64,000 bases of DNA. Origin: Terrabacter sp. Root181. Its GTDB lineage: Bacteria; Actinomycetota; Actinomycetes; Actinomycetales; Dermatophilaceae. The position numbers were made by a program, and so were the translations under genes. The stretch is from positions 1 to 64,000 of the forward strand of contig NZ_LMHU01000009.1 in assembly GCF_001428505.1 (NCBI RefSeq), in the 5' to 3' direction. Positions 54,228 to 61,033 of the stretch are shown one piece after another. Position 1 is the stretch's first letter. Every line of letters starts with the position of its first letter. A model generated the notes under the pieces. The model made no database searches and had not been told where the DNA came from. It saw only the letters and a program-made list of their open reading frames with translations.

Positions 54228-55004
54228 TCAGATGCGGCCGTACATCGACGGCTGGGTCCAGATCGAGTGGTTGCCGATCACGGTGCCGGGACGCTGGGCG
54301 TCGATCATGCGGCCTGGGCTGACGTAGATGCCCACGTGGTAGATCGGCGAGCCGAAGAAGACGAGATCGCCGGGGCGCGGGTTGCTGACCGGCGTCGAGG
54401 CCGCGGCCTGGGCCGAGGCGGTGCGCGGGATCGAGATGCCAGCCTGGCGGTAGACGTAGGACGTGAAGCCCGAGCAGTCGAAGCCGGAGGGCGTCGTGCC
54501 GCCGTAGACGTAGGGCACGCCGAAGAACGACTGGGCGATGCCGACGATGCCGGTGGCGCTGGGGTTGGGCGCGACGTTGAGGGCAGCGCGCGTGGTCGAG
54601 CCGGAGCGCGACGCGCGCTCCTGTGCGGCCTCCCGCTCGGCGGCAGCCTTCGCGGCGGCCTTCTTCTCGGCACGCTCCGCCTTGACCTTGACGTCCTCGA
54701 TGACGACGGGCTTGACCGTGGCCTGCTTGAGGGCGGGCTTGGCGTAGCCGATCGCCGACAGGGCGTTGCCGGCCTTGAGGGTGCCGACGGCCGGGCCGAC
54801 GGCCGCAGGACCGGCGGCGGCGCTGCTCGTACCGTCAGCGGCGTTCGCCGTGCCGGCGAACGAGGCGACGAGACCACCGGAGGCCGCGACGATGGCGGCA
54901 CCCTTCACGGCGGGCTGGGCCGACTCCTTGGCGATCGTCTTGAGCTCCGAGATCGCGTTGAAGCGACCGGGGGCGCGGTGGCGCCCGGGAACGTTCTGAG
55001 CCAC
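54228..55004 (-). CDS. NlpC/P60 peptidoglycan endopeptidase
   Basis: A 258-residue exported cell-wall hydrolase. The N-terminal part includes a basic start (GRHRAPGRF) and a hydrophobic export segment (VKGAAIVAASGGLVASFAGT, ending ANA). A linker with a Lys/Ala/Glu coiled coil follows. The catalytic domain at about 150-258 has SFFGVPYVYGGTTPSGFDCS GF (catalytic Cys), YHVGIYVSPGRMIDA (His) and NHSIWTQPS (third residue). It cuts the stem peptide, as RipA/RPF-type enzymes do. GTG 55004 follows GAGAGG. A c-di-AMP riboswitch sits directly upstream, so its level follows the cell's c-di-AMP state. Confidence 0.9.
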   Translation of the reverse strand: MAQNVPGRHRAPGRFNAISELKTIAKESAQPAVKGAAIVAASGGLVASFAGTANAADGTSSAAAGPAAVGPAVGTLKAGNALSAIGYAKPALKQATVKPVVIEDVKVKAERAEKKAAAKAAAEREAAQERASRSGSTTRAALNVAPNPSATGIVGIAQSFFGVPYVYGGTTPSGFDCSGFTSYVYRQAGISIPRTASAQAAASTPVSNPRPGDLVFFGSPIYHVGIYVSPGRMIDAQRPGTVIGNHSIWTQPSMYGRI

Positions 55005-55019
55005 GTTTGACCTCTCGAC

Positions 55020-55200
55020 GCCTACGAGGTGAGCTGTCGGGTTCGGGCTGGAGGTACTGCCCGGCCTTCGCTCGGACCAGGTTCGGTCCACGGAGGGCTT
55101 CACCCCGAGGGCGTCTCTCGACGCCCGGAGAAAGTGGTTCCCCCGCTCCTGCCGTGCGGTTCGTACTGAGCCTCAGGTCGATGGCAGGACTAGGCGGTCC
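55020..55200 (-). promoter_or_regulatory. ydaO-type c-di-AMP riboswitch
   Basis: Read on the minus strand, the hallmarks of the ydaO/yuaA RNA appear in order: CCTAGTCCTGCC, then ACGGCAGGAGCGGGGGAACCA, GGGGTGAA, GGGCAGTACCTCC, AGCCCGAACCCGACAGCTCA and CCTCGTAGGC. It lies just before the GTG of the NlpC/P60 gene. In actinomycetes this class commonly controls cell-wall hydrolases and turns expression off when c-di-AMP is high. Confidence 0.88.
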
Positions 55201-59278: not shown

Positions 59279-59307
59279 TTGCCGCCGCTCGGGGCCCGAC
59301 GTACGGT
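59279..59307 (+). promoter_or_regulatory. Promoter for the 12-residue ORF
   Basis: TTGCCG (59279-59284), a spacer of exactly 17 bases, and TACGGT (59302-59307). It lies 7 bp after the previous stop and 36 bp before the short ORF. Confidence 0.65.
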
Positions 59308-59342
59308 CGTGGCATCGAAACCGAAGGGAGGTGATCCGAGAA

Positions 59343-59381
59343 GTGATTTCTTCCGGAGCGTGTGAGGTGGCCACGCGATAG
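59343..59381 (+). CDS. 12-residue ORF behind a near-perfect Shine-Dalgarno
   Basis: GTG 59343 to TAG 59379-59381 encodes MISSGACEVATR. AGGGAGGTGATCC (about 59324-59336) ends six bases before it and is complementary to the 3' end of 16S rRNA over 12 of 13 positions, far stronger than any other site in the window. A promoter lies before it and a perfect hairpin after it, so this is a complete unit for a tiny peptide. There is no Shine-Dalgarno-driven gene downstream on this strand before the terminator, so it is not a leader. Function unknown; a role as a titrator of ribosomes or a small membrane-free peptide is open. Confidence 0.6.
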   Translation: MISSGACEVATR

Positions 59382-59412
59382 CCGCGTCCCCATCCACACC
59401 CAGGGATGAAGC

Positions 59413-59440
59413 AGGGCAGTCCGACACGTCGGGCTGCCCT
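59413..59440 (+). terminator. Terminator of the short-ORF unit (also faces pdxH)
   Basis: AGGGCAGTCCGA and TCGGGCTGCCCT pair (one T-G pair) around CACG, and GTTCCGT follows. It separates the short ORF from the convergent pdxH gene and can work on both strands. Confidence 0.8.
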
Positions 59441-59517
59441 GTTCCGTGTCCCTCACCGGACGGGTCCACCCAGCAGTCGAACGCAGCTTTCGGGGCGGTG
59501 GGCCGGCCGGGAGTGGG

Positions 59518-60234
59518 TCAGGGCTGGAGGCGCAGTCGCGTCCACGAGTCGGGGTCGGCGAGGTCGCCGTCACCCGTGCGGCGGAAGACGATCCGGTCGT
59601 GCAGGCGGTTGCGCCGCCCCGCCCAGAACTCGACCTCGTCGCACACGATGCGCCACCCGCCCCAGAAGTCCGGCACCGGCACGTCGTGGTCGCTGCCCGT
59701 GTCGGGGAAGCGCTCGAGCACCTCCTGCCACCTGCGCTCGAGCTCGGCCCGGTCGGCCGCCGGGCGCGACTGGTCGGACGCCCAGGCCGACAGGCGCGAG
59801 CCGTAGGGCCGGGAGTCGAAGTAGGCCTCGACCTCGTCGCGCCCGACGAGCTCGGCGGTGCCGCGGAAGCGGATCGCCCGGTAGATGGCCGGCCACGTGA
59901 GGGCGGCCGCGACGCGAGGGTTGGTCCGGAGGTGCTCGCTCTTCGCCGAGCCGAGGTTGGTGACGAAGCCCGGACCCCGCTCGTCGAAGAAGCGCATGAG
60001 GACGGTGCGCACGTCGGGGGTGCCCGTCGCATCGACGGTGGCCACCGAGATGGCGGTCGGCTCGGGCACGTCGTCGCGGTCGTCGGCCGCGGTGAGAGCG
60101 GCATCGACCCAGGCCTTGGCCTGCAGGTAGGGCGACGCGGCCACGTCGGACTCGACGAGGCCCTCGCCGGAGTAGTCGACGCGACGCACTGCGGCGAGGC
60201 CCTCCCGGGCCGGCTGGCGGGGTGAGCTGTCCAT
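59518..60234 (-). CDS. pdxH: Pyridoxamine 5'-phosphate oxidase
   Basis: A 238-residue FMN enzyme of vitamin B6 synthesis. It shows AISVATVDATGTPDVRTVLM RFFDERG (FMN phosphate contacts), LRTNPRVAAALTWPAIYRAI, GSRLSAWASDQSRP, and the terminal block WGGWRIVCDEVEFWAGRRNR LHDRI with the PLP-contact Arg and His. The length and order are normal. It oxidises PNP or PMP to PLP. The neighbouring citrate synthase places it in a common actinobacterial order. Confidence 0.95.
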   Translation of the reverse strand: MDSSPRQPAREGLAAVRRVDYSGEGLVESDVAASPYLQAKAWVDAALTAADDRDDVPEPTAISVATVDATGTPDVRTVLMRFFDERGPGFVTNLGSAKSEHLRTNPRVAAALTWPAIYRAIRFRGTAELVGRDEVEAYFDSRPYGSRLSAWASDQSRPAADRAELERRWQEVLERFPDTGSDHDVPVPDFWGGWRIVCDEVEFWAGRRNRLHDRIVFRRTGDGDLADPDSWTRLRLQP

Positions 60235-60749: not shown

Positions 60750-60759
60750 CCGCCACGCC

Positions 60760-61033
60760 CTACGTCACTGCTGCACCCCACGCAGCAGTGACGTAGCCGT
60801 CAGACCCCCACCGCCCGCCGGGTGACCAGACCCACCCGCTACGTCACTGTTGCACCCCATGCAGCAGTGACGTAGCCGCCGGACCCCCACCGCCCGCCGG
60901 GTGACCAGACCCACCCGCTACGTCACTGTTGCACCCCATGCAGCAGTGACGTAGCCGTCAGACCCCCACCGCCCGCCGGGTGACCAGGCCCACTCGCTAC
61001 GTCACTGTTGCACCCCGTGCAGCAGTGACGTGG
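60760..61033. repeat. Four tandem 79-bp units, each with a perfect hairpin
   Basis: Four units begin at 60760, 60839, 60918 and 60997. Each opens with CTACGTCACTG(C/T)TGC, a seven-base loop, and the complement GCAGCAGTGACGTAG, so each can fold into a 15-bp stem (copies 2 and 3 have one T-G pair; the fourth is cut at its end). The 42-bp link (GACCCCCACCGCCCGCCGGG core) is nearly identical in the first three. It lies between convergent genes. Confidence 0.9.

Follow-up and report, generated by a model that had tools for sequence, protein, structure and literature searches.

The DNA analysed here, a stretch of 64,000 nucleotides from Terrabacter sp. Root181 that we call the window, contains on its forward strand a unit in which promoter-like boxes, an extended Shine-Dalgarno (SD) sequence, an ORF of only twelve codons and a hairpin follow one another within about 160 bp. 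A sequence-only reading of this unit had proposed that either the 12-residue peptide or the RNA itself may be the product, for example an RNA that traps 30S subunits. The locus raises the question of which of the two is made for use, and of what role a reading frame of this size would play in an RNA.

Layout of the unit

The features are collected in Table 1. The -35-like TTGCCG and the -10-like TACGGT were read directly from the sequence at 59279-59284 and 59302-59307, and the ORF runs GTG ATT TCT TCC GGA GCG TGT GAG GTG GCC ACG CGA TAG. The sequence-only reading had described the boxes, their 17-bp spacer and the short ORF correctly; it was also right about the four-base loop of the last hairpin, whereas the stem, given as 12 bp, has 13 pairs. 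Similar boxes lie at the same distance in relatives, where a TANNNT box is present in 83% of 228 unique upstream regions, compared with 13% in shuffles, and mostly ends 16-17 nt before GGAGG. Neither a sigma-70 site nor a terminator was reported by a generic scan, the boxes being weak and a T run missing from the hairpin; the promoter and terminator calls therefore rest on the comparison with relatives.

Table 1. Features of the unit and its convergent neighbour, in window coordinates.
Feature	Coordinates	Strand	Basis
Promoter-like boxes, TTGCCG / 17-bp spacer / TACGGT	59279..59307	+	sequence; comparison with relatives
RNA 5' end (inferred from the -10 distance) and short pre-SD leader	59314..59326	+	
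GGAGGTGATCC, extended Shine-Dalgarno, exact 16S 3'-end complement	59327..59337	+	
Hairpin H1 (predicted), start codon at the edge of and in the apical loop	59335..59357	+	fold only
12-codon ORF GTG...TAG, product MISSGACEVATR	59343..59381	+	
Second SD-like element GAGGTG in codons 8-9, 9 nt ahead of the stop	59364..59369	+	
ORF-second-half hairpin, GUGUG.GGUGG / CCAUCCACAC; inner stem ACGCG/CGCGU, UAG in the loop	59360..59399	+	fold
13-bp hairpin, CACG loop, likely terminator, no T run	59412..59441	+	
pdxH (PNPOx_N + PNP_phzG_C by Pfam), convergent neighbour outside the unit	59518..60234	-	

The claimed match to the anti-Shine-Dalgarno complement is present: AAGGGAGGTGATC (59324-59336) agrees with AAAGGAGGTGATC at 12 of 13 positions. 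It is the only site in the window with at most two mismatches, and since 0.56 such sites are expected by chance, the 13-mer match alone is not rare. The 11-mer GGAGGTGATCC (59327-59337) is the exact complement of the 3' end of the organism's own 16S rRNA (seen on the antisense strand, L317). This 11-mer has six copies in the 4.94-Mb genome, one of them antisense to 16S, and the 14-mer AAGGGAGGTGATCC, which adds the preceding AAG, occurs once.

The fold of 59312-59451 beats all 200 dinucleotide shuffles (z -4.7), and much of the ORF is predicted to be paired and thus not separate from the RNA fold. As the sequence-only reading had noted, no larger gene follows just downstream on the same strand: pdxH is convergent, and the forward strand holds only mechanical ORFs antisense to pdxH until 60345, where an ORF with relatives in the genus is found. 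The comparison supports a real, free-standing unit; judging from the inferred ends, its small RNA would be about 130 nt long.

Relationship to Ms_IGR-5

The Rfam model RF02471 (Ms_IGR-5) matches 59318-59446 end to end with 25.7 bits (E-value 0.01 in 9 kb and 0.00028 in 251 bases), a score that does not reach the gathering cut-off of 45 bits. The window unit has the extended SD, the GAGGUG core and the in-frame ORF, three features that form our own definition, drawn from the relatives and not from Rfam, and BLAST links it to relatives carrying the full features. It shares with Ms_IGR-5 the SD, the GUGAGGUG core, the frame of the ORF and the terminator-like hairpin; it differs in that its 3' region is compact, GCGAAUNCC is lost, and codons 7-8 pair on the 3' side. 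Judged by sequence, it is a divergent, compact relative of Ms_IGR-5 and not a strict member. The Caulobacter sRNA CC2171 (RF01867) likewise has an extended SD and a terminator-like hairpin, and its model matches the window with 25.1 bits, under the gathering cut-off of 75; however, the middle of the CC2171 model does not align, and the resemblance is likely convergence or chance.

A DNA search gave matches in 22 of 58 genomes, including the nine of the window's genus in the set searched, its own among them. With the RF02471 profile, 56 of 296 genomes of the phylum were matched, 25 of them above the cut-off, and none of 14 control genomes outside the phylum; the filters of the phylum search missed the window's own genome. 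When six relatives were scanned with Rfam, three scored above the cut-off (L025, 164.8 bits; L031, 97.9; L061, 97.5), whereas L254 fell below it with 25.3 bits and L286 and L289 gave no match, which indicates that RF02471 represents the group incompletely. A sequence-only core model, R1, built from 39 sequences with the window's included, matched 73 of 149 genomes in the order, 162 of 246 in the class and 107 of 296 in the phylum, these draws being overlapping. The R1 match was nearly always single-copy, one genome of the class draw and two of the phylum draw having two matches. Viral contigs, searched with the exact pattern, and plasmids, searched by BLAST, gave no matches. Every genome of family f19 among those listed in the class-level search, at least 11, lacks the RNA, which suggests a lineage-wide loss in this family.

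In the published passages at hand, Ms_IGR-5 was validated by RNA-seq as SLIV_16488 in S. lividans (PMC8079986), is one of two Rfam-matched units among 139 sRNA units in S. avermitilis (PMC8780764), and is overlapped in M. smegmatis, as IGR-5, by ncMSMEG15794c (PMC10454040). These passages list it, in Streptomyces and mycobacteria, as a small RNA without a stated function, and those found on this RNA name no ORF within it. Ribosome reads fall on MS_IGR-5 homologues of M. abscessus and M. smegmatis (PMC4974804); however, the same paper gives the caveat that most E. coli ncRNAs are footprinted, so these reads are weak evidence for translation of the RNA. A survey of coding sRNAs includes S. coelicolor, and a term search of its main text gave no mention of IGR (PMC5521070); a different small ORF is described in the 5' UTR of Rv0813c (PMC11133741).

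Genomic surroundings

The neighbours of the RNA were examined at 171 loci with query proteins defined by Pfam domains, many loci having only 1.5 kb of flank. The set pdxH/citA was present at 46 loci, a second set, whose members we take to be pabC, nitrobindin and ygfZ, at 58, and neither set at 67; 59 of the 171 had none of the tested neighbours. Most neighbours identified just downstream point towards the RNA, being convergent (pdxH 35, nitrobindin 43, citA 7). At eight loci (L031, L104, L108, L117, L128, L130, L159 and L168) an MBL-fold gene lies downstream of the RNA in the same orientation. The 12 residues are identical in 8 of the 9 genus genomes. The pdxH neighbourhood, where the sequence-only reading had proposed to look for them in relatives, is not general. 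The kept promoter-like spacing together with the changing neighbours fits a free-standing gene acting in trans.

These surroundings bear on the idea that the unit is the attenuator or leader of a downstream gene. Its SD, short ORF, hairpins and terminator are leader-like, and the same-strand MBL-fold gene at 8 of 171 loci would suit such a role; however, the window's pdxH is convergent, so that no same-strand gene lies just downstream, most recognised downstream neighbours elsewhere are convergent as well, and more than a third of the loci had none of the neighbours tested. We consider an attenuator most improbable.

Conservation of the reading frame

Cores were found in 171 of 172 loci examined (L051 was missed), and 58 of 60 divergent loci were kept; L269, with a variant SD and an ORF-like frame, and L297, a chance-like hit, were left out, and loci L173-L253 were counted in tallies only. 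At least 120 loci came from an exact pattern demanding YGTGAGGTGRCTG. Our finders accepted only loci with both GGAGGTG and GAGGTG and, in the divergent set, with a stop at a fixed place as well; the invariance of these letters and of the stop is therefore partly built in.

Of 202 unique cores, 192 have an ATG, GTG or TTG 7-13 nt after GGAGG from which the frame stays open up to the stop; in the remaining two frames, a start followed by an open frame occurs in 3 and 0 of the 202. Minus the exact-pattern loci, 90 of 100 cores have such a start in frame and the other 10 a near-cognate codon, and the other frames give 3 and 0. There are no internal stops in 150 cores of 12 codons, compared with a mean of 16.2 and a minimum of 7 in column shuffles, which overstate independence because the relatives share descent. 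Among 171 cores, 158 have ORFs of 12 codons, four of 13, four of 14 and one of 11, and four have no ATG, GTG or TTG start; across all relatives the length ranges from 11 to 15 codons. The sequence-only reading had named as the outcome that would count against it relatives that keep the hairpin alone and lose the ORF. Since the ORF is conserved in relatives, this test did not refute it.

The start codons are TTG in 85, ATG in 72 and GTG in 35 of the 192, and the stops are TAG in 161, TGA in 35 and TAA in 13 of 209. A preference for TTG starts and TAG stops is unusual for high-GC genomes, and the bias may reflect pairing or regulated initiation. The other 10 of the 202 cores (L043, L045, L046, L256, L257, L258, L267, L271, L275 and L290) have only CTG, ATT, ATC or ACG where the start is expected, as though weak initiation were being maintained.

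If the unit were an ordinary base-pairing sRNA, the ORF would be incidental. Rfam does list the family as an sRNA, and the 3' arm described below is nearly invariant where it is found; but the start and its frame are conserved to an extent that neither of the other frames approaches, which makes this explanation quite unlikely.

Peptide spelling and RNA pairing

The conserved frame could point to a tiny mRNA whose 12-residue peptide is the functional product. The peptide is identical in nearly all genus genomes, and nearly all cores share a T-x-E-V near the C-terminus. T6, E8 and V9, however, are constant at the level of the nucleotides, residues 2-5, 7, 10 and 11 vary among relatives, and the length varies as well. 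Across 142 unique ORFs, variability does not peak at the third position in codons 5, 7, 10, 11 and 12; codon 6, whose third position is the freest, does behave like a coding codon, and apart from it we found no amino-acid conservation beyond what RNA pairing explains. Codon 7 alone is seen in 21 forms, which encode R, C, L, P, H, V, Y, S and E. Furthermore, 59 of 60 hits of the core model show GAG GTG without synonymous change, although that model was built from sequences all having GAGGTG. A T-[RC]-E-V-A-[AT]-R ending had been considered as a sign of peptide conservation and was dropped, because codons 7, 10 and 11 follow their RNA partners.

These partners lie in two helices. In P0, the 5' leader of most relatives can pair with codons 6-8, and 185 of 209 loci form 5 or 6 of the 6 pairs with their own leader, whereas 42% of 4141 foreign leader pairings reach this level; where codon 7 changes, the 5' leader tends to change along with it. 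P1 can form between codons 8-11 (GGUGNNNNNN) and a 3' arm further away, which in many relatives is GNCAGYCACC after GCGAAUNCC, its CAGYCACC being nearly invariant in loci that have the arm. The Rfam structure line and the literature passages at hand describe neither the ORF nor P0 and P1 for Ms_IGR-5.

Locating the 3' arm by best complement alone proved noisy for the window's group and for deep branches, and was replaced by motif-anchored pairs and foreign-sequence controls. A recognisable 3' motif was present at 138 of 171 loci (129 unique). Of the P1 pairs left free, not being used for anchoring, two were in excess over 300 shuffles, formed in 127 of 129 (shuffle mean 112.8, maximum 118) and in 92 of 129 (mean 56.4, maximum 69); the third showed no excess (119 of 129, shuffle maximum 119). 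All 10 P1 partners were found in 100 of 226 own downstream regions compared with 6.5% of foreign ones, and at least 9 pairs in 186 of 226 compared with 50%. The remaining 40 loci have 8 pairs or fewer, no better than background; they comprise 8 of the 11 loci in the close group of the window, 9 of 38 and 4 of 119 in two further groups, and 19 of the 58 divergent loci. Full double changes are seen in divergent loci, for example GGTGACCATC/GATGGTCACC in L309, GGTGCTCGGC/GCCGAGTACC in L286 and GGTGATGAGG/CCTCATCGCC in L289. RNAalifold, given 59 sequences in an alignment trimmed with our own motif, reported P1 as the only long-range helix, with changes on both sides in only 2 of its 12 pairs, and found neither P0 nor H1 in the relatives.

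Overall, the covariation fits the proposal that the RNA itself is the product. The peptide, its suggested alternative, is not supported as one, since its residues vary and codons 7, 10 and 11 tend to follow RNA partners; a functional peptide is in our estimate very unlikely.

Sites complementary to 16S rRNA

The pairing of the extended SD with the 16S 3' end is retained across the group. All 11 positions can pair in 199 of 202 unique cores (G-U pairs allowed, seven positions required by the finder), and 206 of 209 SD variants keep the pairing. The second site, GAGGUG, 9 nt ahead of the stop, is found in all 209 loci, for which the finder demanded GAGGTG, and in 59 of 60 hits of R1, a model that does not require its exact letters. 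When the stop occupies the A site, 6 nt separate GAGGUG from the P-site codon, and a gap of 6 nt is a usual SD spacing. Its placement suggests that the ribosome may use GAGGUG as a second SD-like element, but the constant distance to the stop could instead reflect the length of a helix. The RF2 frameshift site similarly has a stimulator resembling an SD upstream of and near the stop codon; the likeness is in an SD-like element a few nucleotides before the stop, and any comparable effect here is a guess.

Two such sites would also suit a ribosome trap or parking RNA, in which the anti-16S site and the second GAGGUG would hold a 30S or 70S particle on an ORF one ribosome long and so lower or store free ribosomes. 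This is the main rival of a switch set by translation. It would account for the retained 16S pairing and for the position of GAGGUG, which would allow pairing with 16S while a ribosome has the stop codon in its A site; but a single-copy gene would have to be expressed at a very high level, and a plain trap would require neither the P0 and P1 helices nor an open frame. The trap appears unlikely to us, if less so than an sRNA with an incidental ORF.

The version found in the genus of the window

The window unit departs from this scheme. GCGAAUNCC is absent downstream of its ORF, the leader forms only 3 of 6 pairs with codons 6-8, fewer than those that mark P0, and the P1 test gives 8 of 10 pairs, the background level, as it does for 8 of the 11 unique loci of the close group (L001-L013). 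The second half of the ORF can instead pair with bases just past the stop in the predicted hairpin at 59360-59399, which belongs to the minimum free energy structure of 10 of 13 close relatives (not L004, L005 and L008) and shows compensatory changes in L012 (GUGCG/CGCAC) and L013 (UACG/CGUA). The terminator-like hairpin is kept in L002-L013, with a compensatory change in L011 and L013. These 11 unique sequences suggest that the genus has a rewired, shorter hairpin built on the same principle, ORF bases locked in a hairpin.

Proposed mechanism

Because the folding and the frame are kept and most of the peptide spelling is not, we suggest that what matters is the passage of the ribosome and not the peptide. 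Selection on the start and frame but little on the residues implies that transit is needed, and selection on the helices implies a need for the untranslated fold as well; this is most simply explained by a switch that translation sets. In such a structured sRNA with a compulsory micro-ORF, a ribosome would load at the strong SD and read the codons, and on reaching the stop it would have melted the hairpins that contain the ORF. The 3' arm (GNCAGYCACC in many relatives, CCAUCCACAC here), otherwise locked by ORF bases, would then be exposed. Translation or its absence would set the conformation of the RNA, and either the exposed arm or the closed fold would act on a putative target. Lying 6 nt upstream of the last sense codon, GAGGUG could keep the ribosome in place at termination and so prolong the open state. 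That ribosome transit opens the hairpins and translation gates the RNA is our preferred reading, which we put forward tentatively and at somewhat less than even confidence. Its wider form is rather doubtful: a phylum-wide, mostly single-copy, ribosome-operated switch acting in trans and leading no gene, whose input would be translation of the micro-ORF, almost unconstrained in its spelling, as a reporter of initiation capacity, with the ribosome held at the second anti-16S site, and whose output would be the release or hiding of the conserved 3' arm. An alternative pairing of the 3' arm with the SD is speculation.

The gating of the RNA by translation can be compared with known systems. In the leader-peptide attenuators of trp, ilvB and others, which RNA fold is adopted depends on a ribosome moving over a short ORF, as is proposed here; the present unit differs in that no same-strand gene lies just downstream, there is no regulatory codon run, and the codons vary. 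In dual-function sRNAs such as SgrS the peptide itself acts. The unit resembles SgrS as an sRNA with an ORF, but here the peptide spelling is for the most part not kept, and helices enclose the ORF. SgrS is named in PMC11133741. For a transcript of this kind, the labels "non-coding" and "micropeptide" can both be wrong. The kept frame and the largely free peptide spelling also make the role of Ms_IGR-5 testable with a few point mutants.

Other features of the window

On the reverse strand, 55007-55182 is a c-di-AMP riboswitch (RF00379, 56.9 bits, cut-off 38), which overlaps the 5' part of a mechanical ORF, 54228-55103, whose C-terminal part we take to be NlpC/P60-like from its appearance. Beyond pdxH, positions 60753-61031 form a tandem array of period 79 with 3.5 copies and 94% matches, each unit of which contains an inverted repeat around CTACGTCACTG...CAGTGACGTAG.
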